Positions 1,592 through 21,688 of a DNA stretch of 25,172 bases are shown piece by piece (position 1 is the first letter of the stretch; each line of letters opens with the position of its first letter). Origin of the DNA: a virus. A program made the translations under genes and the position numbers. The stretch is taken from IMG/VR virus record IMGVR_UViG_3300043395_000161, positions 1-25,172 of that record; one strand, given 5' to 3'. The notes under the pieces were generated by a model. It did no database searches. It saw nothing but the letters and a program-made list of their open reading frames with translations, and was not told where the DNA came from.

Positions 1592-2731
1592 ATGGCAACC
1601 AAAGAACAAAAATTAAGTATTCAAGACATCACCTTCGACGATTTCATTGGGGATGGCTTGGCTTCTGTTGAAGAAGGGAAAGAAGAAACCCCAAACGCAG
1701 AAGATGAAGAATTAAAAAACGCTTCTGACTCTGATGAAGATGAAGATGAAGACGTAAACGAAGAGGATGATAATAATGATGATAATGATGATGATGAAGA
1801 TGAATCCCCCTCGTTTAATAGAAGAAAAGATAGAGAAGAGGATGAAGATGAGGATTCAGATGATGAAGACTCAACCGACTCCTCAGTAGCAGGCACTATT
1901 GCAAAGGCATTAGGCTACGAACTTGAAACTGAATATGCAGATACTGAAGAAGGTCTTGTAGAATTCACAAAAGATATTGCTCAAAATATTGCTGAGGATC
2001 AAATCAATGAATTATTCCAGCAGTTCCCACTTGTACAAAAGCATTTAGATTATGTATTAGCTGGGGGAGATTCTGAGCAGTTCTTTAAGGCTTACAACCC
2101 TAACTCAGATTATGCTAATTACGAAATTAATAAAAATGATACAAGAACTCAAAAAGCTTTTGTTGCAGAGTATTTCAAAACTAAGGGCCATGATGACGAA
2201 TTCATCAAAGACATGCTCGAAGACTACGAAGACTCAGGAAAATTGTATGACAAAGCAGTCGTTGCTCAAAAACAACTCTCAGCCGTTCAAGCCAGACAGC
2301 GTGAAGAACTTGTACAACAGCAACGAGAACTTCAAAAACAAGAAGAGCAAAGGCAGCAACAATTCTGGGAAGAAATAGCAGCTAAGATTGATGAGAATGC
2401 AGGCTTTGCAGGCATTAAAATCCCAGAAAAAGAGAAAGGAAAGTTCTTTGATTATATATCTGAACCTGTAGACAAGACAGGAAGAACCAGAAGAGATATG
2501 GATTATGCTAACTCTGATGTAGATGTAAAACTTGCAATTGATTATCTTATGTATAAGAAAATGAATCTGCAAGATATCATCACAACAAAAGCTAAAACTG
2601 AAAGTGTAAAAAGTCTTAGAGATAAAATCCAACGAAATGAAGAAAGAGTTCGGAGCTATGCTAAGACTGAAAAGAATAAAAATAAGAAATTTGATCCCGA
2701 CCAAGTGGATATAAAGAAGCTGTTTGAATAA
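1592..2731 (+). CDS. Acidic scaffold-like protein upstream of the major capsid protein
   Basis: 379 residues. Residues about 20-95 are an extreme Asp/Glu/Ser tract with long runs of D and E. Residues about 100-200 look globular, about 205-270 are Q/E/R-rich and probably coiled coil, and the C-terminus is Lys-rich. An acidic, helical, low-complexity protein immediately 5' of the capsid gene (38-base gap) is the usual position and character of a capsid scaffolding protein, which organises the shell during assembly and then leaves or is cleaved. No protease motif is visible, so this is not obviously a protease-scaffold fusion. The function rests on position and composition. The acidic tract could also serve another charge-based role, such as mimicking DNA inside the prohead. 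Confidence 0.6.
   Translation: MATKEQKLSIQDITFDDFIGDGLASVEEGKEETPNAEDEELKNASDSDEDEDEDVNEEDDNNDDNDDDEDESPSFNRRKDREEDEDEDSDDEDSTDSSVAGTIAKALGYELETEYADTEEGLVEFTKDIAQNIAEDQINELFQQFPLVQKHLDYVLAGGDSEQFFKAYNPNSDYANYEINKNDTRTQKAFVAEYFKTKGHDDEFIKDMLEDYEDSGKLYDKAVVAQKQLSAVQARQREELVQQQRELQKQEEQRQQQFWEEIAAKIDENAGFAGIKIPEKEKGKFFDYISEPVDKTGRTRRDMDYANSDVDVKLAIDYLMYKKMNLQDIITTKAKTESVKSLRDKIQRNEERVRSYAKTEKNKNKKFDPDQVDIKKLFE
1722..1875 (+). repeat. Asp/Glu codon low-complexity tract
   Basis: Degenerate GAT/GAA/GAG trinucleotide run encoding the poly-acidic segment of the scaffold-like protein. Tracts like this can vary in length by replication slippage. The opposite strand reads as a poly-serine open frame, which is an artefact of this composition. 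Confidence 0.6.
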
Positions 2732-2769
2732 ATAACAAACAACAATTAACTTTTAAAATTTAAATAATC

Positions 2770-4194
2770 ATGGCACTAATGCAAGTACTTAAGACGTACT
2801 ATAATGATGCACAAATGACCGACAGTAACTCGTTGGCCAATGCTCTTATGGAACGTCCTGCGGAGTTATCTCCAATCATTACTCATTTGGCTGGTCGTGA
2901 AGAGAAAAAATTCCCTCTGTCTTTCTTGACTGAAGGTGTAGGAAATACTCGTTCAATTGACCGTTTTGAGTACGAATATCGTGTTAAAACTCACGAAATT
3001 AATGTTCGTCCTGTTGTTTCTGCAGCTCCTGCAGCTGTAGTTGGAGCAGGTGGTTCTGCTTTCACACTTACCTTCCCTGATAAGTGGTTCATTTTCCCTT
3101 ACACACTGGTATCACAATCTGGTGCTCTTGCTCGTATTATGAACGAGCCAGTTGCTGATGGTAGCGGTTGGAAATACACTTTGAAAATTGTATCTCCTGA
3201 CACTGCTTCTGTATCTATTGCAGATTGCAGCCCAGGTGCTTTGTGGGGTATGTTGTATGCTAACGTGGGTATTGACTTCTCACGTGGTAATGCTTCTAAC
3301 TGGACTGCCCCAGGTCTTGTTCGTTCTAAGATTGGTACTGTACGTAAGTCTTACCACTTCTCTGGAAATGCTAAAGACTATGTAGCCCAGTTCGAACTTC
3401 CTTTAAAAGAAGGTTCTAAGACTAAGTTGTGGATGGATTACGAAGAGTACCGTCACATGCTTAAGTTCAAAGAAGAGTGTGAAATGTACTACTGGTATGG
3501 TCAGAAAACTCACGATGCTAATGGTACTTCTACTATGCTCGATGAGAATGGTCAACCTGTAATTTCTGGTCCTGGTTTGCTTGAGCAGATCATCAACAAA
3601 GACACTTACTCTACTCTTACTCAAGCTAAACTTGAGGAGACTATCGGGGATTTGTTCTATGGTATGACTGATGCTACTGACAAGCAAGTTACTTTGTACA
3701 CTGGTATTGGTGGTGCTCGTGAATTCGACAAAGCATTTAAATCATACTATGGTGCAAACACTTACCTTCAGACTACTCAGCCTTACTTCATCACTGGTAG
3801 CGGTCGTAACCTTGGAATCACTGGTTACTTCACTAGCTACCAACACGTAGATGGTCACCACGTTAACGTAGTTAAGTCTCCTTTGTTTGATCACGGTCCT
3901 GTGGCTCAAGCTTCTAAGAAGCACCCAGTATCTGGTCTTCCATTGGAATCTTACCGTATGGTGTTTGTTGACCAATCTACTTATGATGGTGAAAATAACC
4001 TTCAGATGGTAAATAAAAAAGGTCGTGAATTGCTTCGCTGGTGTGTAGCAGGTTCAGTTGTCCCAAAAGGATTTACTGAAACCGACACTCGTGCAAGTGA
4101 CATTGACGGTGCTTCTGTTCACATGCTGAAGACAGCTGGTATCTTACTTCGTCGTTTCGATACTAGTCTGGACATGCAGTGTGTTGCATCGTAA
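2770..4194 (+). CDS. Putative major capsid protein
   Basis: 474 residues, close to the usual size of HK97-fold capsid proteins in large Bacteroidota phages. No single catalytic motif applies. The call rests on several signs together: it directly follows an acidic scaffold-like gene, it is closed by a strong terminator 20 bases downstream, and its codons are strikingly optimised. Arginine is almost always CGT and glycine mostly GGT, whereas most neighbours use AGA and GGG/GGA. That pattern suggests a very abundant product. The N-terminal 60 residues (ALMQVLKTYYNDAQMTDSN onward) look like an extended arm; the rest is mixed alpha/beta with many aromatics. Start ATG at 2770 follows an A/T-rich leader. 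An abundant tail protein is the main alternative, but the order scaffold-then-capsid favours capsid. Confidence 0.75.
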   Translation: MALMQVLKTYYNDAQMTDSNSLANALMERPAELSPIITHLAGREEKKFPLSFLTEGVGNTRSIDRFEYEYRVKTHEINVRPVVSAAPAAVVGAGGSAFTLTFPDKWFIFPYTLVSQSGALARIMNEPVADGSGWKYTLKIVSPDTASVSIADCSPGALWGMLYANVGIDFSRGNASNWTAPGLVRSKIGTVRKSYHFSGNAKDYVAQFELPLKEGSKTKLWMDYEEYRHMLKFKEECEMYYWYGQKTHDANGTSTMLDENGQPVISGPGLLEQIINKDTYSTLTQAKLEETIGDLFYGMTDATDKQVTLYTGIGGAREFDKAFKSYYGANTYLQTTQPYFITGSGRNLGITGYFTSYQHVDGHHVNVVKSPLFDHGPVAQASKKHPVSGLPLESYRMVFVDQSTYDGENNLQMVNKKGRELLRWCVAGSVVPKGFTETDTRASDIDGASVHMLKTAGILLRRFDTSLDMQCVAS

Positions 4195-4213
4195 TTTGTG
4201 TTTGGTTTGCAAT

Positions 4214-4242
4214 AAAAGGGGGGTATCCACTCCCCCCTTTTT
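4214..4242 (+). terminator. Strong intrinsic terminator after the capsid gene
   Basis: AAAAGGGGGG (4214-4223) pairs perfectly with CCCCCCTTTT (4232-4241) around an 8-base loop, giving a 10-bp stem with six G-C pairs and a T run on the 3' side. Placed 20 bases past the capsid stop, it should separate abundant capsid message from the downstream genes or protect its 3' end. Confidence 0.88.
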
Positions 4243-4299
4243 AAACATAAAACTTAGGTTATTCTTTACCCTAGGATTAATTAATAAAAAGAACTAATT

Positions 4300-5106
4300 A
4301 TGGAGAAGAAGATTATTATTAGAAGAAAGGAGGTCTTAAACCACCTCCCAAAAGAGATCAGAGCAGGAGCTAGGATCAAATTAGGGTCAATTTATGTTGA
4401 CCGTCTCCCACTCAAAGGAGTTGATGGAGAAGAAGAAGAAAAATTGTTAAAAGGGATTATTGATGTTCCAGCAGGACACCAAGATTGGCCAGCTAAAACC
4501 AAAGACTTTTGGGCTAGCTTAGCACTAAAAGTGCCATTCGAGGGAGTAGAGCTGAACATTGGTACTTATGAAGACGGAACCCCAATAAGTGCAATGGATT
4601 ATATCTATTGGAAATGGGCCCTAAAGCATAAGCAAGTAGCAATTTCTGAAGAAGAAATGAAGACGGATGCAAACAAAAGATTTTACATCTACGATCCTCA
4701 GAAAGACCTTCTTAAGAAAAATGCTAAAGTGCAGGTTAAGAAAGACGCTGACAAAGAGTTTATCAAACTTACTGGAGACGTCAATCGAATGAAGATGTTA
4801 TTGAGAGTTCTAGTTCAGGGAGATCCTGAAAGACTTTCTACAATGGAGATCGAGAATACCTTGTACGACTATAAAACAAGTAACCCAGAAAGATTTTTGA
4901 AATACTGCCTGGATACCAACCTTGACATTCAAGCAGAGATTGAGGAGATGGTTGCAAAAGATATCCTACGTAAAATTGGGAATCAGTTAATCTTCGAAGA
5001 TGAAACAATCGGGGAAGATACTAAAGATGCAATTGTTTATTTCAAGAACAAAAAGAATTCTGGACAAGTAAACGTGATGAGAGCAAGGCTCAAAGAAGTA
5101 TCTTAA
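4300..5106 (+). CDS. Conserved-type phage protein of unknown function downstream of the capsid gene
   Basis: 268 residues with no domain I can name. The N-terminus is basic (EKKIIIRRKEVLNHLPKEIR). Residues 40-120 are rich in Trp and acidic residues, and residues 150-260 appear helical, with KMLLRVLVQGDPERLSTMEI as a well-formed segment. There is no signal peptide, membrane segment or catalytic motif. It opens the group that follows the capsid terminator and ends 8 bases before the next start, so the two genes are probably co-transcribed. Position just after the capsid gene suggests a head-completion or assembly role, but the sequence does not show this directly. Confidence 0.7.
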   Translation: MEKKIIIRRKEVLNHLPKEIRAGARIKLGSIYVDRLPLKGVDGEEEEKLLKGIIDVPAGHQDWPAKTKDFWASLALKVPFEGVELNIGTYEDGTPISAMDYIYWKWALKHKQVAISEEEMKTDANKRFYIYDPQKDLLKKNAKVQVKKDADKEFIKLTGDVNRMKMLLRVLVQGDPERLSTMEIENTLYDYKTSNPERFLKYCLDTNLDIQAEIEEMVAKDILRKIGNQLIFEDETIGEDTKDAIVYFKNKKNSGQVNVMRARLKEVS

Positions 5107-5114
5107 TTTGATAG

Positions 5115-6281
5115 ATGACTATAAACGAGATGCATATAGCTGTTAACCTGGGGGTGCAAAAGATTGCATCCTTCCAGGTTGACACTCTTTTACCTCAAGA
5201 GATAGACCATGAGTTAAATCTAGCTATCTTAAGATTTGTAAAACAACGATACTCTCAACTATCTAATAGAGTAGGGAGAGGATTTGAGCAATCTCAAAAA
5301 AGGATAGATGACCTTAGAAACTTGATAGTAGATCAAAGTATGAACACCTTTAATGAAGGGTATAAATACGATTCTACTGGGGGGTATATCTACACTGCTG
5401 ATAATTCTAATATCTACATAGATAAAGGAGTTATCCCACTAGACTATCTATTCTTAATATCTGTTAAAGCAGATGTTTACTACTTATGTAACTCTCAAAT
5501 TACTCCCCCGACTTTATACTTAGAGAACTATTATTTCTATGGGACAAAAGTAGATTTAACTCCCCCGGCTGCTGGTTACACACTGGTTAACCTTGAAGTT
5601 TCAGCAAGTAGTACATGGACATCTTTAATTAATAACCCTAATGGGGCAGGGGCAGAGATTACTTTAGACATTCTTAGGGATATTAATAACTATAATGCAA
5701 GTTTAGGGTCGTATGAGCCAGCTGAAGGCTTTCCTTACGAAACAAATACTTTGCAAGTATCAACTACATCACCTCTTATAGATGCTAACCATATCTTTAT
5801 TAATTTAAAAAATGGTGGCTGGGAACTACTGGACGGGGGGTATGTAAGGCTAACTTGGAGATATAACAATGATCCTTCTACTGATGTATTTTTAATACAA
5901 GCAGAACGTAAAAATATAACTCAATCTCAAAGAACTGCCCCAGATGCAACAAACAGAATAAGCCTCTGTAAGTTTGCACAACACGATGACATTATTTATA
6001 TGATGAACGACCCGTTTAACATAACGGATTATCGTTCCCCATTATATACAGTATCAGAAAACTACGTAGCTATCTACACAGATAATACTTTTGTAGTGCC
6101 TAGGGTATATTTAACTTACCTTAAAAAGCCAGCTAAAGTATCTATTACAGATGGGTTGGGGACTGATCTCCCAGAACATACTCACCCTGAAATTGTAGAG
6201 ATGACTATAAAGAGTATACTTGAGGGTATTGAATCCCAAAGGTATCAATCACAATCAATGGAAACATTTGAAAGTGAGTAA
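5115..6281 (+). CDS. Putative connector/neck-type virion structural protein
   Basis: 388 residues. The N-terminus (TINEMHIAVNLGVQKI, then QEIDHELNLAILRFVKQRY) matches a pattern I associate with structural proteins of crAss-like and other Bacteroidota phages: a helix ending in EID..LN.A...F. The middle (residues 100-290) is Tyr/Thr/Asn-rich and probably beta-structured. The C-terminus has LPEHTHPEIVEMTIKSILEG, also typical of that family. It is followed by a C-terminal tail of Gln, Ser and Glu residues. In these phages such proteins belong to the neck or tail ring, but I cannot say which ring it forms. Start ATG at 5115 follows a short leader without a clear Shine-Dalgarno site. Confidence 0.6.
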   Translation: MTINEMHIAVNLGVQKIASFQVDTLLPQEIDHELNLAILRFVKQRYSQLSNRVGRGFEQSQKRIDDLRNLIVDQSMNTFNEGYKYDSTGGYIYTADNSNIYIDKGVIPLDYLFLISVKADVYYLCNSQITPPTLYLENYYFYGTKVDLTPPAAGYTLVNLEVSASSTWTSLINNPNGAGAEITLDILRDINNYNASLGSYEPAEGFPYETNTLQVSTTSPLIDANHIFINLKNGGWELLDGGYVRLTWRYNNDPSTDVFLIQAERKNITQSQRTAPDATNRISLCKFAQHDDIIYMMNDPFNITDYRSPLYTVSENYVAIYTDNTFVVPRVYLTYLKKPAKVSITDGLGTDLPEHTHPEIVEMTIKSILEGIESQRYQSQSMETFESE

Positions 6282-6318
6282 TTAAAATCAATGTTTAACT
6301 GCCTAAAACTAAATTAAA

Positions 6319-7329
6319 ATGGCACCTCAAAATTTAAATCAGGTATTCGTAATTAACGATCCTGCTATGTATGACACTACTACATTTGCCAACACAGCAG
6401 CTGTTACAGCTTCTAAGTTGGGTGTGTGGGATGTGGATAACAGCACTTATGATGATGACGCAGCTTTGACCACAAAGAAACGTATTCAAATTGTGCAAAC
6501 TATGCCTTCTGGCAATCCAATTGCTACCCCAATTATTGATGTAGCAAATATTGTAAGAATTAACTACAAAGAATGGACTTCGGTAATTCCTACAAGAGCA
6601 ACTCAAACTATTGACTTTGGTTCACCAACAAGCACTAAAGATGTAATGTTGAGAATTGCACTTCGTACAGCTCCTACAGCTTATGCTAACTACTATCAAG
6701 ATGGTACTGCAGTAGATTTGTCTGGTGGTGGATATGAATTCCCATTGCTTGGTAACTTCTCTGCAGGTCGTATGATCTTCAATATTGAAGTTGCTGCATC
6801 AGTACATGGTGGTTCTGAGACTGCTTTGGTTACAGCTGCGTACAATGCAATCATTGGCAACAAGACTTTTAATGCTTTGTTTGCTGCTACTGATAGCGGT
6901 AGCTCAGGGTTAGTTCTTACTGCTCGTCACTATGGAGTAGAGTTTGACATTACTTCTCAGTATTCTGATAAGTCAGGTGCTGTAGGTACTGTTACTGCTT
7001 CTCGTACTAACGCTACTTCAAACTATGCAATTGCATTGTCTGATGAAAAAGCTCAACGTGCTCGTTACGGAAACTTCAACCGTATGTACTTCCCATACAA
7101 TTTCCCAACTTTTGCTCAATCCGGGTATAAGTATGATGTAATCGAAGTTCAATACAAGCATGACTGGCCTTCATCTACAGGTATTGCTCGTGCAGGAGAG
7201 TTGAACACTGTTAAAATTTACGTTGGAGCTAGCTCTACTGCACTAGCTTATGCTGCAGAAGCAACTGGTACTGACTTTGCTACTGTATTTGATTACACTG
7301 GCGGTACAGATAAAGAACAAGTATTCTAA
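6319..7329 (+). CDS. Second abundant virion protein (tail tube-like or auxiliary capsid protein)
   Basis: 336 residues, no cysteine, rich in Ala/Thr/Ser/Tyr. Like the capsid gene it favours CGT arginine and GCT/GGT codons, mixed with some AGA, and it has its own strong terminator 14 bases downstream, so it is probably made in large amounts. Residues about 150-220 follow the pattern of a small beta domain common in phage tube and sheath proteins: ETALVTAAYNAI, then a stretch ending SSGLVLTARHYGVEFDI. That suggests a tube-like protein. In a short-tailed crAss-like phage an auxiliary head protein would be the alternative. The sequence alone does not decide between them. Confidence 0.55.
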   Translation: MAPQNLNQVFVINDPAMYDTTTFANTAAVTASKLGVWDVDNSTYDDDAALTTKKRIQIVQTMPSGNPIATPIIDVANIVRINYKEWTSVIPTRATQTIDFGSPTSTKDVMLRIALRTAPTAYANYYQDGTAVDLSGGGYEFPLLGNFSAGRMIFNIEVAASVHGGSETALVTAAYNAIIGNKTFNALFAATDSGSSGLVLTARHYGVEFDITSQYSDKSGAVGTVTASRTNATSNYAIALSDEKAQRARYGNFNRMYFPYNFPTFAQSGYKYDVIEVQYKHDWPSSTGIARAGELNTVKIYVGASSTALAYAAEATGTDFATVFDYTGGTDKEQVF

Positions 7330-7343
7330 TCTAAAATTAATTT

Positions 7344-7375
7344 AAAAGTAGGGGGAGCAATTCCCCTACTTTTTT
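7344..7375 (+). terminator. Strong intrinsic terminator after the second abundant virion gene
   Basis: AAAAGTAGGGG (7344-7354) pairs perfectly with CCCCTACTTTT (7363-7373), an 11-bp stem with an 8-base loop, followed by more T. The A-tract/T-tract arms could allow function on either strand, but no minus-strand gene ends here. Confidence 0.88.
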
Positions 7376-11911: not shown

Positions 11912-12234
11912 TGGACGATTATGATGAATTTGATGAAGAGTTCGAACAGACAATGGACGAATTCTTTGAGAAAGTAGCATCAATAGATGCTTGCTACAAT
12001 AACGGGTATAAGTTAATAACTAATAAGAACACATTAGCAGAATTAACTAAAGCCAAGTTAGTAGTTCTCTTCCCCTTTAACCCTAAAAAGTTAGAGGAGT
12101 TTTTGAATGTTGCAGACCTAATGATAAAGTATTTTGAAGGAACAGAAGAATATGAAAAGTGTATTGACTTGGTTAAAGCCAAGGAAGAAATGATAGAAAA
12201 ATTGGGAATTAATACATTCAAAAATGACGCTTGA
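11911..12234 (+). CDS. Small acidic helical protein of unknown function
   Basis: 107 residues. The N-terminus is strongly acidic (MDDYDEFDEEFEQTMDEFFE) and the remainder is helical with alternating Lys/Glu. It is coupled on both sides: its ATG shares one base with the phosphoesterase stop, and its own stop overlaps the next gene by 11 bases. It carries the only TGA stop among the 21 complete genes. No motif is recognised. It might partner with one of its coupled neighbours. Confidence 0.6.
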   Translation: MDDYDEFDEEFEQTMDEFFEKVASIDACYNNGYKLITNKNTLAELTKAKLVVLFPFNPKKLEEFLNVADLMIKYFEGTEEYEKCIDLVKAKEEMIEKLGINTFKNDA

Positions 12235-12934
12235 TGAAATTGCATACAATATCTTAAATGCTTTTAGAGGGGGTAGAGGATCTCAAGATGAATACGTAAC
12301 TATTGATCAGATTAAGTTCAATATTAGGCACTATCGTGCTATGCTCATCAGAAGAGACTATGCCAGAAATGGTTTAGTAACCAGACACTTAGAGCAAGAT
12401 TTAAGATGTGTTGAACTTGAAAAAGTTGACTTATCTAAATGCTGTGGGATTACAATAGGATGCCCAGCATGGAGAAGTGTAAAGAAAATTCCACGTACAG
12501 TTAGGTTTAATTTTGAAGAAGCTATTACTTATGTAGGGGACGTATCAGGCACAGGACGTATCCCATTAATCAAGCCCTATGAAGTAGCTTATATCACAGC
12601 TGATAAGTTCACTAAGAACAATGCTAAAGCTTACATGATTGAGGATTATATGTACATTCTCAATAATAAAGGGGCAGACACAATAAACATTAGAGGAATA
12701 TTTGAAAACCCAGAAGAAGTAGCTGAATTTTCAGACTGCTCTGGTCTCCCTTGTTATACAGGGGGTTCTCCATTCCCAATGCCTATGGATATGGTACAAG
12801 CTGTAACTCAAGGCTTAATGTCTGGGGAGCTTAGATTGCTTACTGGAACATTCTCAGACCAAACGGCTGATAGAACTCAAGATATGGCACCTGCTGCCCC
12901 ACAAATTGGGGGACAAACTCAACAATCTGAATAA
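12224..12934 (+). CDS. Conserved Bacteroidota-phage virion structural protein (neck/ring type)
   Basis: 236 residues. The N-terminus TLDEIAYNILNAFRGG, then QIKFNIRHYRAMLIRRDYAR and DLRCVELEKVDLSKCC, matches a pattern I recall in structural proteins of crAss-like and many other Bacteroidota phages. The C-terminal 60 residues are Pro/Gly/Gln-rich and probably flexible. Its role in the particle is most likely a ring or adaptor between head and tail, but this is by recollection of the family, not by a motif. It begins inside the previous gene (11-base overlap), favouring translational coupling. Confidence 0.65.
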   Translation: MTLDEIAYNILNAFRGGRGSQDEYVTIDQIKFNIRHYRAMLIRRDYARNGLVTRHLEQDLRCVELEKVDLSKCCGITIGCPAWRSVKKIPRTVRFNFEEAITYVGDVSGTGRIPLIKPYEVAYITADKFTKNNAKAYMIEDYMYILNNKGADTINIRGIFENPEEVAEFSDCSGLPCYTGGSPFPMPMDMVQAVTQGLMSGELRLLTGTFSDQTADRTQDMAPAAPQIGGQTQQSE

Positions 12935-14389: not shown

Positions 14390-14965
14390 ATGAAAGGCAT
14401 GTATAAAAAAGGTGGTAAAGACCTTAAATCTAAAGTAATGAAAGAAGCCAAAAAAGAAAAGGAATCTTTCATGGAGGAGAGCAAAGAGCTTTCTTTTGGG
14501 AGAGTCAAAAAAGAAACTGGAGGCCCTGGTGACGAGATGAGTAGAGGTGAAGCTAGGCTTACTAACAGGATTAACAGAAACAAACTAAAGCTTGAACAAG
14601 CTCAAAAAGAATACAACCAATCCCCAGATGACCCAAAAGATTTGTACAGATCTACTCCAGGTGGAACTGAAATGCTTGAGAAATATATTGAGCAGAAAAC
14701 AAACAAAGTGAAAAAGCTTGAAGATAGAAAAAATAGAAAATATCCTACAAAAACTTATGTAGCTAAAACAGGTGGAGCTAAGTCTATGGAGCCAGGTGGT
14801 GGTGGAAGATTTGCTAAGATGGTAAAAGGCTTGAAAAAGAGTGGTAAGTCTGAGGAATCTGCTGAAGCAATTGCTGCCTCTATTGGAAGAAAGAAGTACG
14901 GTAAGTCTAAGTTCCAGGCTATGGCTAATGCTGGTAAGAAGAAAATGGGGGGAGCTAATTGTTAA
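14390..14965 (+). CDS. Lys-rich phage protein, GG-motif and KSEESAxAIAASIGRKKYG type
   Basis: 191 residues, very basic. It opens MKGMYKKGGKD (ATG 14399 is an alternative start) and carries SFMEESKELSFGRV at residues 26-39, matching a segment near the end of the previous protein. A charged helical middle follows. The C-terminal 50 residues, FAKMVKGLKKSGKSEESAEA then IAASIGRKKYGKSKF, form a motif I recall at the C-terminus of small proteins in many Bacteroidota phages. The basic charge suggests nucleic-acid binding. Function is not established. Confidence 0.65.
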   Translation: MKGMYKKGGKDLKSKVMKEAKKEKESFMEESKELSFGRVKKETGGPGDEMSRGEARLTNRINRNKLKLEQAQKEYNQSPDDPKDLYRSTPGGTEMLEKYIEQKTNKVKKLEDRKNRKYPTKTYVAKTGGAKSMEPGGGGRFAKMVKGLKKSGKSEESAEAIAASIGRKKYGKSKFQAMANAGKKKMGGANC

Positions 14966-15482: not shown

Positions 15483-16379
15483 ATGATTTACAAACTGATT
15501 TCTAGCAAGGCTATAATTAGGAAGGTTATGAGAGATCTCAAGCCTCCTGGGGATAACTGGATTGACGATGCCGTAGAGTGGATGGGGGAAGCTCTTGACC
15601 ATATTGGGTCAGCTCCTCAGCTTGAACAGAAGAACTGTGTCATCACAATCAAGAATTTTAAAGCTTTGCTTCCTGCTGATCTCTATTACTTAGAGCAAGT
15701 AGGGGTTAATAACTCCATTAACCCATCAGTTACTAATGAGTTAGATGCTCTATTTGAACAAATTAAGGAGCTTAATGCACAGATTGTATCTGACCCTAAT
15801 GATAAAATAGCTTTCAATAATCAATTAAGAACATTGAATGCTAGAGTAATGGTTCTTGAGAACTTATACTTAAATACAGGTCAGCCTTTAACCCCTTTAC
15901 AATATGCTACAACTACATTTCATGCCAGTGCAGATTGTGAAGATTGTAAGAATTTATATGGGGTTATCAAACCTAGTTACTTTATAGATGGGGATTACAT
16001 TAAGACATCATTCCAAGATGGGGCTGTTTGCATTAGCTACAAAGCTTTCCCAATAGATGATGACTGCTACCCTATGGTCCCAGATAATATCAGCTTTAAA
16101 GAAGCTTTATTCTGGTATGTATACAAGCAAATGCTGCTTGGGGGATACATGCCATCTATGAATGGGATTGGGTATGACTTTGCAGATAATAAATGGAAGT
16201 TTTACTGCTCTCAAGCTAGAAATAGCTCTAACTTCCCAAGCATTGACAAGTACGAATCGTTCTTGAATCAGTGGGTTAGACTTGTCCCTAACTTGAATAG
16301 ACATGCTAACTTCTTTGAGAACATGGGAACTAGAGAAACTTTGGATAGAGGAAGATATACTAACTACGGAATACTATAA
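15483..16379 (+). CDS. Conserved Bacteroidota-phage virion structural protein (neck/tail type)
   Basis: 298 residues. The N-terminus SKAIIRKVMRDLKPPGDNWI then DDAVEWMGEALDHIG, and a following Leu-Pro segment (FKALLPADLYYLEQ), match a pattern I recall from structural proteins of crAss-like and related phages. Residues 85-125 include a heptad-like helix and a Gln/Asn-rich stretch. A CEDC pair occurs near residue 150. The C-terminal half is aromatic-rich. It starts just after the IHF-like gene and its stop shares one base with the start of the giant virion gene (TAATG), so the two products are probably made in fixed ratio and assemble together at the neck or tail. Confidence 0.62.
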   Translation: MIYKLISSKAIIRKVMRDLKPPGDNWIDDAVEWMGEALDHIGSAPQLEQKNCVITIKNFKALLPADLYYLEQVGVNNSINPSVTNELDALFEQIKELNAQIVSDPNDKIAFNNQLRTLNARVMVLENLYLNTGQPLTPLQYATTTFHASADCEDCKNLYGVIKPSYFIDGDYIKTSFQDGAVCISYKAFPIDDDCYPMVPDNISFKEALFWYVYKQMLLGGYMPSMNGIGYDFADNKWKFYCSQARNSSNFPSIDKYESFLNQWVRLVPNLNRHANFFENMGTRETLDRGRYTNYGIL

Positions 16380-19300
16380 TGGCTGAAGATTTAAAGTTTG
16401 TAAAAGGGATGTTTAAGGATACTGGTCCAATTGACCAGCCTGACTACACCTACCGTGATGCATTAAATGCAGTTATTGATCAAAACAAAGCTGCTATATT
16501 TAATGAAGTTGGGAACTCTTTTGTAAGTTCTATAGTAGCTGACTATAATGGGGAGTTAATCCCAGTTAGTGTAGTAGGGGCAATTCCATTAGAAGATGAT
16601 AATATCGTAGTATTTGCTTGTAGACAAAAAGTTAAGATAACTAACTCTGTAACATTTGTAGACGTATCAGCTATTTTGCTTATTGATACAGGGAATAAAA
16701 AGACTAAAACTCTTTATATAACTACAAATGAAGACCCATTTACAGGGGTAGATTCTAAATATGGGCACTTAGATTTTAATGTTTCTTACCCTATAACTGG
16801 GGAGTATAGAGTGTCAGCTAACGGGGATATTCTAGTTTACTTTACAGATAACAGATATGTGATAAACACAGACCCTGCAACTGGAATCGAGTACATTGAG
16901 AAATACAATCCCCCAAGAGTATTTAACATAACAAGGCAATTAGAGAAGATTACATCTGGGCCTAGCACGTTTCTTTATACCTCCCCTTCTAAACACGTAG
17001 AAGTATTAAACATCTTTATGGATTCAGGGTCAATCCCTGAGTTTGAAAGCATTGAGATAAAATTTGGGGGAGGAGTTGAAAGTGGGACATACCACTTAGG
17101 ATTAGCTTATGCAGATAGAGACTTTACAGAAACTAACGTACTAACTGTATCTAACCCAGTATATGTAGTCCCTAATGATGACACTACTATCCCAAGGGAG
17201 ATTATCACAGGATCCCCTAATGAAACACAAACTGGGAAAACAATTAACTGGAACATTGATCTTAACTCAGTTAATTACGATTATGAATATTTAGTCCCTT
17301 ATATTATACAAAGAATAGGGACTGCAGTATTTGCAAATAAGTTAGAGGCTATAAAATTATACCCTGGAGCTAAACTAAAAGTTTCTTACAGTGGGATAGA
17401 GAATGCAGCTCAATCAGCATTAGCTGAAGTAGCTATTGATAAAGTAAAATTCATAGCAGCTAATGCAATAACTCAATTAGATAACAGACTTTATCTAGCA
17501 AATTTAACTGCAAGAAAAGATATTGGGTATCAAAGATTTGCTAATAACATTAAACTTGATGCTGTTACAGAGACTGTATCTAAGTTTGATCCTAGACACT
17601 ATGATATCTATAATTTAAATATAGGGTATGCACAACTAGTATACCCTGATAACCCAGGCTCTTCTTCAATCCCTGATATAACTGTAAATAAAGGGAGAAT
17701 GTCTACATACATTCAAACAGTTATCAAGCCTATACAGCAGAATACACACAGAGGATATAGAGACCCAGACTTTTTATTTAAGAAAAAAGGGTACAGAAGA
17801 GGAGAAGTTTATGCATTCTACATCTCATTTGTATTAAAAGATGGGAGTGAAACATTTGCTTATCATATCCCTGGAAGGGCTGCTAGAGTGCTAAACCCTA
17901 ATGCCCCAGCTGTTATACCTAGAATAAGTGAGACAGATTCTTTAACTACATATTCTGCATACTCAGCTTTATCTTTAATACAAAGTTTTAATGGGCTTGA
18001 AGTTACAGCTTCTAATCCTGATGCTAAGGTATATCAATATCTAGACACAAGTACTCAGCTAGGGTTAACAACAGGATTTTGGAGGAATCAAAATGAATTC
18101 TACCCTACAGATGAAGTTGACTTTGAGATATGGAAAGTAGATAACAATGGAAATGGGGTTAATACTTTAACTTCTTTAGAGGGGTTAAATGTTAGGCACC
18201 ATAAGATGCCATCTAACCATAACTCTAACTTTAGCTATGTACAAACCAATGTTGACTTCTCTACCCCGGGGCTTACAGTTCAGGGGACTAACAGTGTAGA
18301 TTTCAAAGAAGATATTAGAATTTTAGGGATTAAATTATCAGATATCTCTATCCCAAAATTCATTTTAAAGCAAGTACAAGGGTATAAGATTTATTATGCA
18401 AAGAGAAACCAGTATGATAAAACAATCATAGGGCAAAGTGGGGCACACCCTGCAACCCCTTATCTTACTGCTAATATTGGGACTACAAAAGAAGATGCTA
18501 AATATGGTCCTTACTACAGCCTTTGGCAGATGGATGGGTATCATCATAGCACAGGGTTATTGAACAATGATGCTTTGTGGACTCAAGCTTCTTATCTTTC
18601 ACAGCCTGTATTTAAATTTCATGACTTTAATCTTTTAAGAAAGAAGCACACATTAGCTACTGCAACCCACATTGATATCCAGTTCATAGCAACTATGCAT
18701 GCATGGAATGGGGGATTCAAAGGAGTTCGTCCAAAACCAATTGCAGATGCAGTAATAGAAGGGGTAGACAGTATGTTCTACACATCATTTAGAACAGGGC
18801 ATGGGGACTCTGATTATATATGGATACACCCAGATTTAGGGAATACGATAAATAGAGACTTAACAGAAGGGGATGTATCTTATGATGTACAAGGCCCTAG
18901 AATACTGTGGGGAACTGTCTTTGTAGCAGCAAGATATAATCACCCAGGCCAAGCAGGGGTTGACATTGGTAATCCATATAGTTTGTCTATTGCAGTAGGG
19001 AGAGGTCAAAAGTTTGAGGCTAATCAAGCTAACTTATTGTCTACTATGCAGACTATATTTATGATTGCCCCTAACTCTGCAAGTTACTTAAATGGGTTAT
19101 CTATCTTAAGTAATCAAGCAGCTACTGCATATCAAGGGGCTACATACTTAGCTAACACTAGTGGGGAAAGCTCAATAGCTATCGGATTAGTTTCTGGGTT
19201 ACCTACATTATTTGGGTATAACTCAGGCTCAGTAGAAAATTCACAGTTTCAACAACTTTGGAATGTATTAAACTTTATAGAGGTAAGTAAAGTCCCAATA

Positions 19301-21688
19301 GATCCTGAGGCAGCTTCTTACCAAGAAGATATTGAATCTTTACCACAATGGATGCAAACTTTTTGGGGATACACCCCTTATGGATATATATATAATAATA
19401 TAATATACCCTCCTGAAGATCCTGAAAACACTATTACAGGACGGTTGTCCACAGGAAGAGAATATCTTACAGCATTTAACAATGACTATGGCAAAGCAAA
19501 TGTTTACTTAGTTAACTTATGCTCTGCTAAAACAAATGTCTTTGAACCATTTGATACACAAACTCTAGTATGGACTGGGTTTTATCAGAATCTTCGTGAT
19601 GTAGATGTAGAAACTGGTTGGGGTACTAATAGCAATAATAAGTCTGTAAACTATTATACTGGGGCTGATTCCCCTAATATATTCGGGGGAGATACATATA
19701 TTGTAAGGCATTCTTACAGAATAACATCTCAGAATAGTCAGCTAGTTTACTTTAAGATTGGGGAGAATGCTGAGTACCCTGATAATACTAACTCTCAAGG
19801 TCAGTTTATACGAGGGAATACCCCATTCAATATGCTAGAGGGGTATACAGGGAATGATAAAGTGTTGTGGGTTACTGGGGATTACACACAAAGAGTAGAT
19901 ACTGTAGCATCTGGAGATAACTCAGATGATAACTGGAGTACTGGGGATCATAATGTATTTGCCACAATCTTCCAGTTTATGGTGGAGGCTGACGATAACA
20001 TTAACTACAGACACTCCGGGGATGTGGAGAAAGGAGTCCCAGTTTCATCTAGTGTATTCTTTGACAGGCACGTAGCATCTGAGGTTCTATTTAGATCCCC
20101 ACTTCGTGACTTAACTAAGATGGATAATATCTTGTATGAAGATGTGTACTCAGCTGTACAAGATATCAGAGTTACAACCCCTTATGGGAAAGGGATAACA
20201 ACTGTATTTAATTTCCCTAACAGGATTATTAGATCCTCTGTATTAGATGGGAACTTTAATGATACTTACAGGTACTTCTTAGCTTTAGATTATAAAGACT
20301 TTGCAGTAAATAAAGGGGAGATTAAGAACATATTTAACTTAAATGCTCTCCTGCATATACACACAGAGAGAAGCTTATACAGAACTAAAGGTAAACAAGT
20401 TGTACAGTTATCTGATGCTTCTCAAGCTTATATTGGAAGTGGAGATTTATTTGCTCAAGAACCAGATGAATTCTTACAAAGTTTTGATGGGCATATAGGG
20501 CTGAATGGTAAGATGGCTGCTTTAGTAACAAAGGCTGGATATGTCTTTGTAGCTAGAAAATCTAAGAGAATATTCTTAGTAGCTGGGGAGATTAAAGACC
20601 TTACAGAAATAGGGATTACTACATGGGCTAGAAATAACATCCCATTTGACATTGAGAACTATGGATACGTATTTGAAAGTGATACATCAGTAGCTTCAGA
20701 TGCCCCAACAGATAAGTTTGGGTTTGTGGCAGGTTATGATCCTTTATTCAAAAGAATTATCATAACTAAACACGAACTTGTCCCATCAAGTAAGTTTAAA
20801 GCTTTATACTTTAATAGCCAGGCAAAGTTTGAGAAGAATGTCCCTATGGTGGTTAACGATGATGGGAAGTGGGTTACAACTTCTTTACAGGATAATGACT
20901 ACTTTGATATAGGGGGATGGACAATATCATACTCAACAGATTCTCAAGTATGGGTTAGTAGACACAGCTATGTATCTCCACTACTCCCATTCACAAGTTC
21001 TGCTATGTACAGCTTTAAGCCTATCACTATAAACTATATAGGGGTAGGAGTAGGGGCTAGTACACAGCTTGTCCCTGGGGGAATTTATTCACACAATAAC
21101 GTAGATAATCCTGGTAATTTCTATGGAAGTACATATAACTTTGAAGTAGACTGTGTGTTTACAGGGGAGGTTAAAAAGTCAATTCAAGGAGCAACTAGCA
21201 TGAAAAATGAGAACAGACTTTATTCTGCTGTCTCATTTGTATCTAATACTATCTCTAAAACATTTGCTCAAGATCCTGAAGCTCTGATATTTGACCCTGG
21301 ATTTACAAGTTACTATGTATACAATACTCACCAAAACTCAGGGGTTACTACATTTAAATACTTAGAGAATCTTAGGAAAGTAGAAGGGCATTGGACCTTT
21401 AATAATTTCAGAGATATGTCTAGTGTGTTCTATACTTCAGGATTAGTTAATGGGCAGGTAGATGTACAAGGTAATCCATACAACGGAAGTTATACCCCAG
21501 TATCTGCTCCTATGTTTTCAGCAGAAGGGGTTGTAAACCCTGGTTATATAAACAGTTCTAAACCTTGGTATGAACAAAAGAAATTTGTAGATAAGTACTT
21601 AGGACTTAGATTAATTTGCAACAACGGATCAAAAAATTTAGTAAGTTTGTATACTGTGTCTGCAGCTTACAGAATATCTCCAAGATAA
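16379..21688 (+). CDS. Giant virion protein (tail stabilisation/muzzle-like), 1769 residues
   Basis: The N-terminus FVKGMFKDTGPIDQPDYTYR followed by DALNAVIDQ matches the signature GMxKD...P..Y.DALN of large tail proteins in crAss-like and related Bacteroidota phages. The body is Asn/Gly/Tyr-rich with regular short beta motifs, consistent with a propeller-like or repeated beta fold; no signal peptide or membrane segment is seen. Near the C-terminus, W1672 in HWTFNNFRD and the final segment (KFVDKYLGLRLICNNGSKN, then a Y-R-x-S-x-R end) are typical of the same group. I expect it to form the outer or distal part of the tail, possibly with receptor contact. The gene is unbroken, with heavy use of GGG glycine and C-ending codons before proline. 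Confidence 0.72.
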   Translation: MAEDLKFVKGMFKDTGPIDQPDYTYRDALNAVIDQNKAAIFNEVGNSFVSSIVADYNGELIPVSVVGAIPLEDDNIVVFACRQKVKITNSVTFVDVSAILLIDTGNKKTKTLYITTNEDPFTGVDSKYGHLDFNVSYPITGEYRVSANGDILVYFTDNRYVINTDPATGIEYIEKYNPPRVFNITRQLEKITSGPSTFLYTSPSKHVEVLNIFMDSGSIPEFESIEIKFGGGVESGTYHLGLAYADRDFTETNVLTVSNPVYVVPNDDTTIPREIITGSPNETQTGKTINWNIDLNSVNYDYEYLVPYIIQRIGTAVFANKLEAIKLYPGAKLKVSYSGIENAAQSALAEVAIDKVKFIAANAITQLDNRLYLANLTARKDIGYQRFANNIKLDAVTETVSKFDPRHYDIYNLNIGYAQLVYPDNPGSSSIPDITVNKGRMSTYIQTVIKPIQQNTHRGYRDPDFLFKKKGYRRGEVYAFYISFVLKDGSETFAYHIPGRAARVLNPNAPAVIPRISETDSLTTYSAYSALSLIQSFNGLEVTASNPDAKVYQYLDTSTQLGLTTGFWRNQNEFYPTDEVDFEIWKVDNNGNGVNTLTSLEGLNVRHHKMPSNHNSNFSYVQTNVDFSTPGLTVQGTNSVDFKEDIRILGIKLSDISIPKFILKQVQGYKIYYAKRNQYDKTIIGQSGAHPATPYLTANIGTTKEDAKYGPYYSLWQMDGYHHSTGLLNNDALWTQASYLSQPVFKFHDFNLLRKKHTLATATHIDIQFIATMHAWNGGFKGVRPKPIADAVIEGVDSMFYTSFRTGHGDSDYIWIHPDLGNTINRDLTEGDVSYDVQGPRILWGTVFVAARYNHPGQAGVDIGNPYSLSIAVGRGQKFEANQANLLSTMQTIFMIAPNSASYLNGLSILSNQAATAYQGATYLANTSGESSIAIGLVSGLPTLFGYNSGSVENSQFQQLWNVLNFIEVSKVPIDPEAASYQEDIESLPQWMQTFWGYTPYGYIYNNIIYPPEDPENTITGRLSTGREYLTAFNNDYGKANVYLVNLCSAKTNVFEPFDTQTLVWTGFYQNLRDVDVETGWGTNSNNKSVNYYTGADSPNIFGGDTYIVRHSYRITSQNSQLVYFKIGENAEYPDNTNSQGQFIRGNTPFNMLEGYTGNDKVLWVTGDYTQRVDTVASGDNSDDNWSTGDHNVFATIFQFMVEADDNINYRHSGDVEKGVPVSSSVFFDRHVASEVLFRSPLRDLTKMDNILYEDVYSAVQDIRVTTPYGKGITTVFNFPNRIIRSSVLDGNFNDTYRYFLALDYKDFAVNKGEIKNIFNLNALLHIHTERSLYRTKGKQVVQLSDASQAYIGSGDLFAQEPDEFLQSFDGHIGLNGKMAALVTKAGYVFVARKSKRIFLVAGEIKDLTEIGITTWARNNIPFDIENYGYVFESDTSVASDAPTDKFGFVAGYDPLFKRIIITKHELVPSSKFKALYFNSQAKFEKNVPMVVNDDGKWVTTSLQDNDYFDIGGWTISYSTDSQVWVSRHSYVSPLLPFTSSAMYSFKPITINYIGVGVGASTQLVPGGIYSHNNVDNPGNFYGSTYNFEVDCVFTGEVKKSIQGATSMKNENRLYSAVSFVSNTISKTFAQDPEALIFDPGFTSYYVYNTHQNSGVTTFKYLENLRKVEGHWTFNNFRDMSSVFYTSGLVNGQVDVQGNPYNGSYTPVSAPMFSAEGVVNPGYINSSKPWYEQKKFVDKYLGLRLICNNGSKNLVSLYTVSAAYRISPR

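Follow-up and report, generated by a model that had tools for sequence, protein, structure and literature searches.

The 25,172-base window analysed here (the whole stretch, positions 1 to 25,172 of IMG/VR record IMGVR_UViG_3300043395_000161) is a fragment of a crAss-like phage in which a major capsid protein (MCP), ring proteins and a muzzle-type protein are recognised. We conclude with considerable confidence that the gene at 2770-4194 encodes the MCP, that the 336-residue gene at 6319-7329 encodes the capsid auxiliary protein (AUX), and that their common codon bias, leader and 3' hairpins support matched, high output of the two. The observation is explained by a known kind of protein under a known kind of selection, to which the leader and the hairpin add detail. 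The MCP belongs to the Crassvirales type, matching Pfam PF23898 Crass_capsid with E 6e-81 (272.7 bits against a cut-off of 27) and, in the PDB, gp32 of phicrAss001 (7qof) with E 4.5e-18.

The codon use of these two genes sets them apart from their neighbours. As the first-pass annotation had read it, the MCP gene uses CGT for nearly all arginines (18 CGT and one CGC, hence CGN in 19 of 19, with no AGA or AGG) and GGT for many glycines (35 of 41, the others being five GGA and one GGG), and the gene at 6319 shows the same tendency mixed with AGA (nine CGT and three AGA among 12 arginine codons; GGT in 15 of 25 glycines). The two genes between them favour AGA, as that reading also held: g4300 has eight AGA, two AGG, two CGT and one CGA (8 of 13 AGA) with GGT in one of 14 glycines, and g5115 has seven AGA, five AGG, two CGT and one CGA (7 of 15) with GGT in three of 20, while the window's 20 genes other than MCP and 6319 use CGN for only 42 of 285 arginines. 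ATA is absent from the isoleucines of MCP (0/19) and AUX (0/20), against 36% in the other window genes, and both further prefer TTG or CTT over TTA and contain more TTC and AAC. When codons are resampled within each amino acid, MCP deviates with z 30 and 6319 with z 9.3, and none of 300 resamples is as large. Since g1 (z 9.3) and g16379 (z 9.5) deviate as strongly in other directions, each gene was scored for its displacement towards MCP, amino acids being controlled for; among the 21 other genes this index gives z 9.4 for 6319, 4.1 for g14390, 3.3 for g4300 and at most 1.5 for the rest, the muzzle gene at 16379 having the most anti-MCP codon use (z -5.6). The two-tier division that had been proposed thus holds in so far as MCP and 6319 stand apart, but it is not strict: the tiers are nearer three than two, with g4300, the gene in scaffold position and g14390 intermediate. 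Pooled over related loci, ATA supplies 3% of the isoleucine codons in MCP, 4% in AUX, 6% in g4300 and 11% both in the gene at the scaffold position and in g14390; for the remaining families the figure is 17-67%.

The bias recurs in relatives. Two scans of IMG/VR, one with the 6319 gene as query (15 loci) and one with the MCP (the best 80 of at least 597 confirmed), gave 72 loci with different MCP sequences, the window among them. Of these, 39 offer seven or more genes of 100 codons or longer and enough of AUX to be indexed; near-identical contigs remain among them, so the loci are not independent. Under amino-acid control, 38 of these 39 loci have the 6319 orthologue as their most MCP-like gene, and in the remaining one it is third; an earlier index without amino-acid centring agrees, AUX coming directly after MCP in 49 of 50 loci when partial contigs are counted. 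Of eight named crass-group phages (147 genes), five have AUX, identified by fold or by position alone, as the gene closest to MCP in codon use: phicrAss001 (z 7.6, first of 27), Fpv3 (4.4), phi14:2 (3.8), cr10_1 (9.5) and 'jaberico' (5.1), the labels in Fpv3, crAss002, p-crAssphage and 'jaberico' being by position only. The CGT mark itself is not universal, as phicrAss001 has no CGN among 570 arginine codons in this block and its MCP uses no CGT; there, ATA is missing from MCP (0/22) and gp36 (0/25), against 438 of 920 elsewhere, and both genes are also richer in C-ending codons.

What kind of protein the 6319 gene encodes is indicated by its predicted fold and its place. Searches of the product against Pfam, PHROGs and the PDB (phmmer) gave no usable match, tblastn against phage records gave none, and a 34-sequence profile of the family gave only a chance match in the PDB. 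An AlphaFold model built on a 34-sequence alignment (pLDDT 84, pTM 0.81) has as its best Foldseek match in the PDB 7qof_a, the 'Auxiliary capsid protein gp36' of phicrAss001, with E 5.6e-10; only two of 467 PDB matches reach E 0.001, and the runner-up is from another phicrAss001 entry. VIA, whose list is limited to families that Foldseek picked up so that others may be absent, aligns 269 residues with gp36 (Z 15.8, root-mean-square deviation 4.0; model 2-329 on chain 4-333). The model has the two-domain layout of gp36-type AUX proteins, a PH-like domain (about 1-90 and 232-336) interrupted by a FliD/sheath-like one (about 91-231, the borders being taken from structural alignments). Nine of the 12 best matches in BFVD are named crass-group phage proteins and three are nameless; the best include proteins of cr130_1, cr10_1, phi14:2, cr8_1, ProJPt-Bp1 and Fpv1, and the phi14:2 protein among them, S0A3H3 (E 7e-12), is by its length gp099, annotated as structural from tandem mass spectrometry (MS/MS).

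Gene order agrees with this assignment. It runs MCP, g4300, the ring-like g5115 and AUX here, and MCP, gp33, R4/R5, R3 and gp36 in phicrAss001, so that AUX is the third gene after MCP in the one and the fourth in the other, the place of a gp36-type AUX. In the phicrAss001 structure nine MCP and nine gp36 copies make up each asymmetric unit (PMC10172136). By its modelled fold and its place, the product of 6319-7329 is very probably the Crassvirales AUX and, by analogy with phicrAss001, very probably coats the capsid at about one copy per MCP. With AUX present in about as many copies as MCP, the codon signal would have singled out the shell's two principal components, and the annotation's view of this gene as a second major virion component is supported by fold and place.

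The inserted domain also raises the question of whether the product could be a tail-sheath or tail-tube protein, another highly expressed structural kind. VIA aligns residues 91-231 with FliD/FliC domains and with the sheath of myophages (Z 11.0 for both 9cba and 8kee_C), one of 34 family members matches PHROG 165 'tail sheath' (E 6e-05), and the same-place proteins crAss002 gp15 and p-crAssphage gp71 are so named. Yet the FliD, FliC and tail-sheath structures listed align to residues 90-232 only, the sheath matches spanning about 85-102 residues of the insert, whereas the gp36 match takes in the PH-like part as well; the likeness of the gp36 FD domain to FliD/FliC has already been noted (PMC10172136), and the phicrAss001 virion has a short non-contractile tail. 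A sheath or tube protein is therefore very improbable, and AUX remains the better assignment.

The next question is whether the bias is an adaptation to the host. A query of genome contigs with the MCP found no relative, and as the host was not found, codon tables of Bacteroidota in general were used: ribosomal-operon open reading frames (ORFs) of 56 Bacteroidota (80 loci fetched, 56 usable), the 'ribosomal' genes being mechanical ORFs of at least 80 aa lying at most 9.5 kb downstream of rpsL and not individually checked. The codon index against a Bacteroidota set, put forward earlier as a check, separates the genes, with MCP first in 53 of 56 tables (23 of 26 low-GC, 30 of 30 other) and AUX second in 39 (20 of 26 low-GC, 19 of 30 other). 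In the three low-GC sets L162, L123 and L172, MCP ranks 17th, 2nd and 4th of 20 and AUX 10th, 3rd and 7th. The codon use of MCP and AUX is thus nearer to Bacteroidota ribosomal-operon genes than that of the other phage genes is, on tables of Bacteroidota in general.

Codon tiers could also reflect gene differences in CpG depletion or mutation rather than in translation. The window is CpG-poor (observed-to-expected ratio, o/e, 0.30) and CGT holds a CpG, which means that this codon might simply single out genes spared from CpG loss. Across codon borders, CpG is indeed 0.70 in MCP and 0.54 in AUX against 0.37 in the pooled rest. However, it is comparably high in genes that have no CGT preference (g1 0.69, g4300 0.61, the scaffold-position gene 0.58), and NCG codons are as rare in the two genes as elsewhere (MCP 4 of 122, AUX 2 of 113, rest 31 of 1671; p 0.29 and 1.0), only CGN being raised against the rest (MCP p 5e-15, AUX p 1e-5). 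Preferences that involve no CpG (no ATA, GGT, TTC) point the same way as CGT. Relaxed CpG depletion was accordingly rejected, and a mutational origin of the tiers has little probability; selection on translation accounts for the bias better.

Both genes also begin in the same way. A TTAAC-N(2-5)-TAAA element is found in 35 of 40 distinct MCP leaders, 24 of 38 AUX leaders and nine of 43 leaders of g4300, which starts after the MCP hairpin, against none of 278 in 16 other families; the element starts a median 22-23 nt before the ATG, and its exact N3 form has 63 copies in MCP and AUX leaders (816 kb examined). Every distinct leader of the two genes has A at -3 (44 of 44 for MCP, 39 of 39 for AUX), and the mean number of A's at the four positions -3, -6, -12 and -13 is 3.70 for MCP and 3.62 for AUX; elsewhere this score is 3.4 in g13442, 3.3 in g4300, 3.2 in g14390, 1.8 in the ring gene and 1.3 at the scaffold position. 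In Flavobacterium johnsoniae, A at these four positions has been tied to translation efficiency (Baez et al. 2019, PMC6847099). The TTAAC element occurs in one of 26 rpsL leaders of low-GC Bacteroidota (anywhere in 60 nt) and is unlike TAnnTTTG, the -7 element of Bacteroidota given in the same paper. The nearly fixed distance of TTAAC to the ATG favours a role in translation over one as a promoter, making it a candidate translation element.

The strong hairpin that had been seen to close each gene is likewise confirmed, and in both cases a GC-rich hairpin followed by a T-run makes a putative intrinsic terminator. A strict search for terminator-like hairpins finds one after AUX in 45 of 45 cases, after MCP in 41 of 69 and after g9917 in four of 29, with none of 380 in 13 other families; by a fold-based criterion on distinct flanks the counts are AUX 36 of 36, MCP 37 of 51, g4300 7 of 46, g9917 6 of 27, g7397 2 of 34 and g10787 2 of 18, with none in ten further families. 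The phicrAss001 genes followed by a hairpin are MCP, gp36 and three of 26 others. Late crass genes are probably transcribed by the host RNA polymerase (review PMC10136315).

Taken together, we envisage that translational selection would keep host-preferred codons (CGT, GGT, no ATA) in genes whose products are required by the hundred, the bulk of the structural block drifting to AGA, GGG/GGA, TTA and ATA. The A-rich leader would raise initiation and the hairpin would end or protect the transcript, so that MCP and AUX may be made at matched high levels despite the low-copy ring gene between them.

Several results weigh against this picture. AUX is not second in 17 of the 56 Bacteroidota tables, it is only second in crAss002 and p-crAssphage, and the AUX candidates of ProJPt-Bp1 are not MCP-like. 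The N3 form of the leader element occurs elsewhere in the 816 kb 27 times on the + strand and nine times on the - strand, about 14 per strand being expected. Fpv3 and phi14:2 show no hairpin after MCP or AUX, and in cr10_1 it is only MCP that is followed by one. At the sequence level the likeness to gp36 is marginal, with no PDB sequence match, an hhalign probability of 8% and, for the hidden Markov model (HMM) of the 6319 family, E 0.03 among 147 proteins; the same model gives E 1.6e-4 for phi14:2 gp099, to which hhalign assigns a probability of 70%. The assignment to AUX is thus based on fold and place. Codon index and virion copy number are uncorrelated in phicrAss001 (rho 0.01 for the 12 proteins with 150 or more codons; 0.31 with 15 proteins), the copy numbers being taken from the text of the paper and those of the head fibres (180, 240), gp22 (36), muzzle (6) and AUX (540) being our own reckoning. 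A graded codon read-out of copy number was rejected, as no correlation extends beyond AUX itself in that phage.

The specificity of the codon mark was examined in two long contigs from relatives (86 and 84 kb, with 57 and 51 ORFs of 100 aa or more). MCP is first in both, whether scored along its own direction or along the Flavobacterium ribosomal one. On the MCP axis AUX takes third place in each contig; the gene that also precedes it in rank is a 201-aa one of unknown function in one contig and rIIB-like in the other. On the ribosomal axis AUX is sixth in the first contig, its frame there being shortened to 275 codons by a piece boundary, and third in the second. MCP-like codons are also found in the rIIB-like gene of both contigs and in a rIIA-like gene of one, the rIIB names being partial PHROG matches (best E 2e-07). 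These rII-like genes lie at L178:10736-14727 and L183:5807-6976, and the rIIA count of one leaves aside the 939-aa neighbour in the other contig. Since rIIB-like genes share the bias, codon use marks strong expression and not virion membership as such. The step originally taken from codon optimisation to a virion component thus agrees with the identity of AUX, but it is not specific. It could be argued on the same grounds that the bias marks strong expression at any time and that the 6319 product is abundant in the cell without being a major part of the virion; the fold match to a capsid protein present at nine copies per asymmetric unit and the MS/MS annotation of the phi14:2 relative make this improbable, and a major capsid component remains the preferred reading.

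We speculate further that MCP and AUX form a split expression cassette, in which a common TTAAC-N-TAAA start, host codons and terminators of their own would set a 1:1 capsid stoichiometry independently of the ring gene. Host tRNAs would then serve the shell and phage tRNAs, which at least one relative carries for AGA and TTA, the rest, and the signature would find AUX across Crassvirales from sequence alone. This is a possible but doubtful extension.

The bacteriophage T7 gene 10 capsid unit offers a precedent, in which the capsid gene has a strong leader to itself and is followed by a terminator. Unlike in T7, two separate genes are involved here, and the roles of their leaders and terminators are putative. 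Host-preferred codons are known to be commoner in phage head and tail genes than in other phage genes (Lucks et al. 2008, PMC2266997); compared with that account, the strong effect here is confined, within the structural block seen, to the two 1:1 capsid proteins, and the ring and muzzle genes are without it. Both leaders here carry the A's of the Kozak-like starts of F. johnsoniae, whereas the TTAAC-N-TAAA element is absent from the description of those starts in the portion of the paper covered (PMC6847099). The closest counterpart of AUX is phicrAss001 gp36 (PDB 7qof, PMC10172136), which shares the fold over the 269 aligned residues (333 against 336 aa, PH-like with a FliD-like insert), the place after MCP and ring gene(s), the 3' hairpin and the most MCP-like codons of 27 block genes. 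It differs in sequence (about 13% identity, no significant match), and for arginine phicrAss001, a genome nearly devoid of CpG, prefers AGA where the window prefers CGT. The Cellulophaga phage protein phi14:2 gp099 is alike in fold, in its place after MCP and a ring protein, in being first in the codon index and in its virion MS/MS annotation, but its sequence match is weak (hhalign E 4e-5) and no terminator-like hairpin was found 3' of it. A full-text search for a link between codon use and AUX in crass-like phages gave one review, PMC10136315, which in the passages covered does not make it.

AUX is unusual in being apparently expressed as strongly as MCP and yet far less conserved. Over 40 loci, mostly chosen by MCP similarity, which favours MCP, the median identity to the window is 52% for AUX against 90% for MCP, 72% for g4300 and 76% for ring protein 2 (R2). 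Such divergence might suggest that the 336-aa gene was recently acquired from a genome with other codon habits; but it follows g5115 in the loci that extend far enough, and with codons nearest to MCP in nearly all indexed loci a recent arrival is extremely improbable. The low identity fits an outer, exposed capsid layer, as AUX of phicrAss001 forms the outer layer of its capsid (PMC10172136, Extended Data legend), and exposure to the outside may drive the divergence of this gene. Because Pfam and PHROGs miss AUX, annotation would leave one of the two main shell proteins of the clade unnamed; where sequence similarity fails, AUX can be sought at little cost by combining the codon signal with the leader and the hairpin. 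The same-place genes of two gut relatives are named 'putative tail sheath' (crAss002 L092:14570-15451; p-crAssphage L093:15830-16693), a name that probably stems from the sheath-like inserted AUX domain.

Coordinates of the features discussed, with the evidence for each
Feature	Position	Strand	Evidence and remarks
Major capsid protein (MCP), Crassvirales type	2770..4194	+	474 aa; PF23898 Crass_capsid, PDB 7qof gp32, codon counts
Very probable capsid auxiliary protein (AUX, phicrAss001 gp36 type)	6319..7329	+	336 aa; AlphaFold, Foldseek/VIA match to 7qof_a; codon index
MCP leader	2746..2769	+	TTAAC-N3-TAAA 24 nt before ATG; A at -3, -6, -12, -13
AUX leader	6295..6318	+	TTAAC-N4-TAAA 24 nt before ATG; A at -3, -6, -12, -13
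Terminator-like hairpin 3' of MCP	4218..4242	+	G6/C6 stem (4218-4237), then TTTTT
Terminator-like hairpin 3' of AUX	7344..7375	+	stem-loop 7344-7373, then T's
g4300, between MCP and g5115	4300..5106	+	relatives p-crAssphage gp73, crAss002 gp13, cr10_1 gp60; intermediate codon tier
g5115, tail-barrel ring protein (R3/R4/R5 type)	5115..6281	+	long middle insertion; low codon tier, poor leader
Acidic protein directly 5' of MCP (scaffold position)	1592..2731	+	relatives p-crAss gp75, ProJPt gp32, others
Ring protein 2 (R2) homologue	12224..12934	+	low-copy comparison gene; PDB gp40, E 2.4e-05
Ring protein 1 (R1) homologue	15483..16379	+	low-copy comparison gene; PDB gp43, E 4e-15
Muzzle-type tail protein	16379..21688	+	phrog_15100; blastp to Fpv3 gp29, crAss001 gp44
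Lys-rich 191-aa protein	14390..14965	+	second to AUX in amino-acid-controlled index; strong leader

Among the neighbouring genes, the product of 1592-2731 may be a scaffold, to judge from its gene place. The muzzle-type protein had no phmmer match in the PDB, and the 14390-14965 product has no Pfam match and a weak PHROG match to a family of unknown function. Scans of the window for tRNA genes and against Rfam found none. The long contig L178 of a relative carries tRNA-Leu(UAA) and tRNA-Arg(UCU) at 3014-3361, which read TTA and AGA, codons little used by MCP and AUX of the window and favoured by its other genes.

CpG content varies widely among crass phages. In two parts of the phicrAss001 genome (Bacteroides phage crAss001, NC_049977; L090, L188) CpG o/e is 0.01 and 0.03, with three CGN among 957 arginine codons in 53 coding sequences, while it is 0.07 in Fpv3 and 0.48-0.67 in six other crass phages, against 0.30 in the window; a full-text search for literature on CpG depletion in bacteriophages of the crass group found no paper. 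ProJPt-Bp1 has two adjoining AUX-like proteins, gp34 and gp33 (L095:16372-18398), upstream of MCP, neither with MCP-like codons, the pair being assigned by fold (equated by length) and by HMM. In p-crAssphage, KP06_gp61 (L093:30598-31371) has 12 CGT against two AGA and, with z 6.9, is more MCP-like than the AUX candidate of that phage; it is possibly another abundant protein. The similarity of g5115, whose family profile finds ring protein gp34 in the PDB (E 0.0027), to its relatives cr10_1 gp57-59 and phi14:2 gp100 lies mostly at the ends (about 1-90 and 275-384), and the approximately 180 residues between seldom match.

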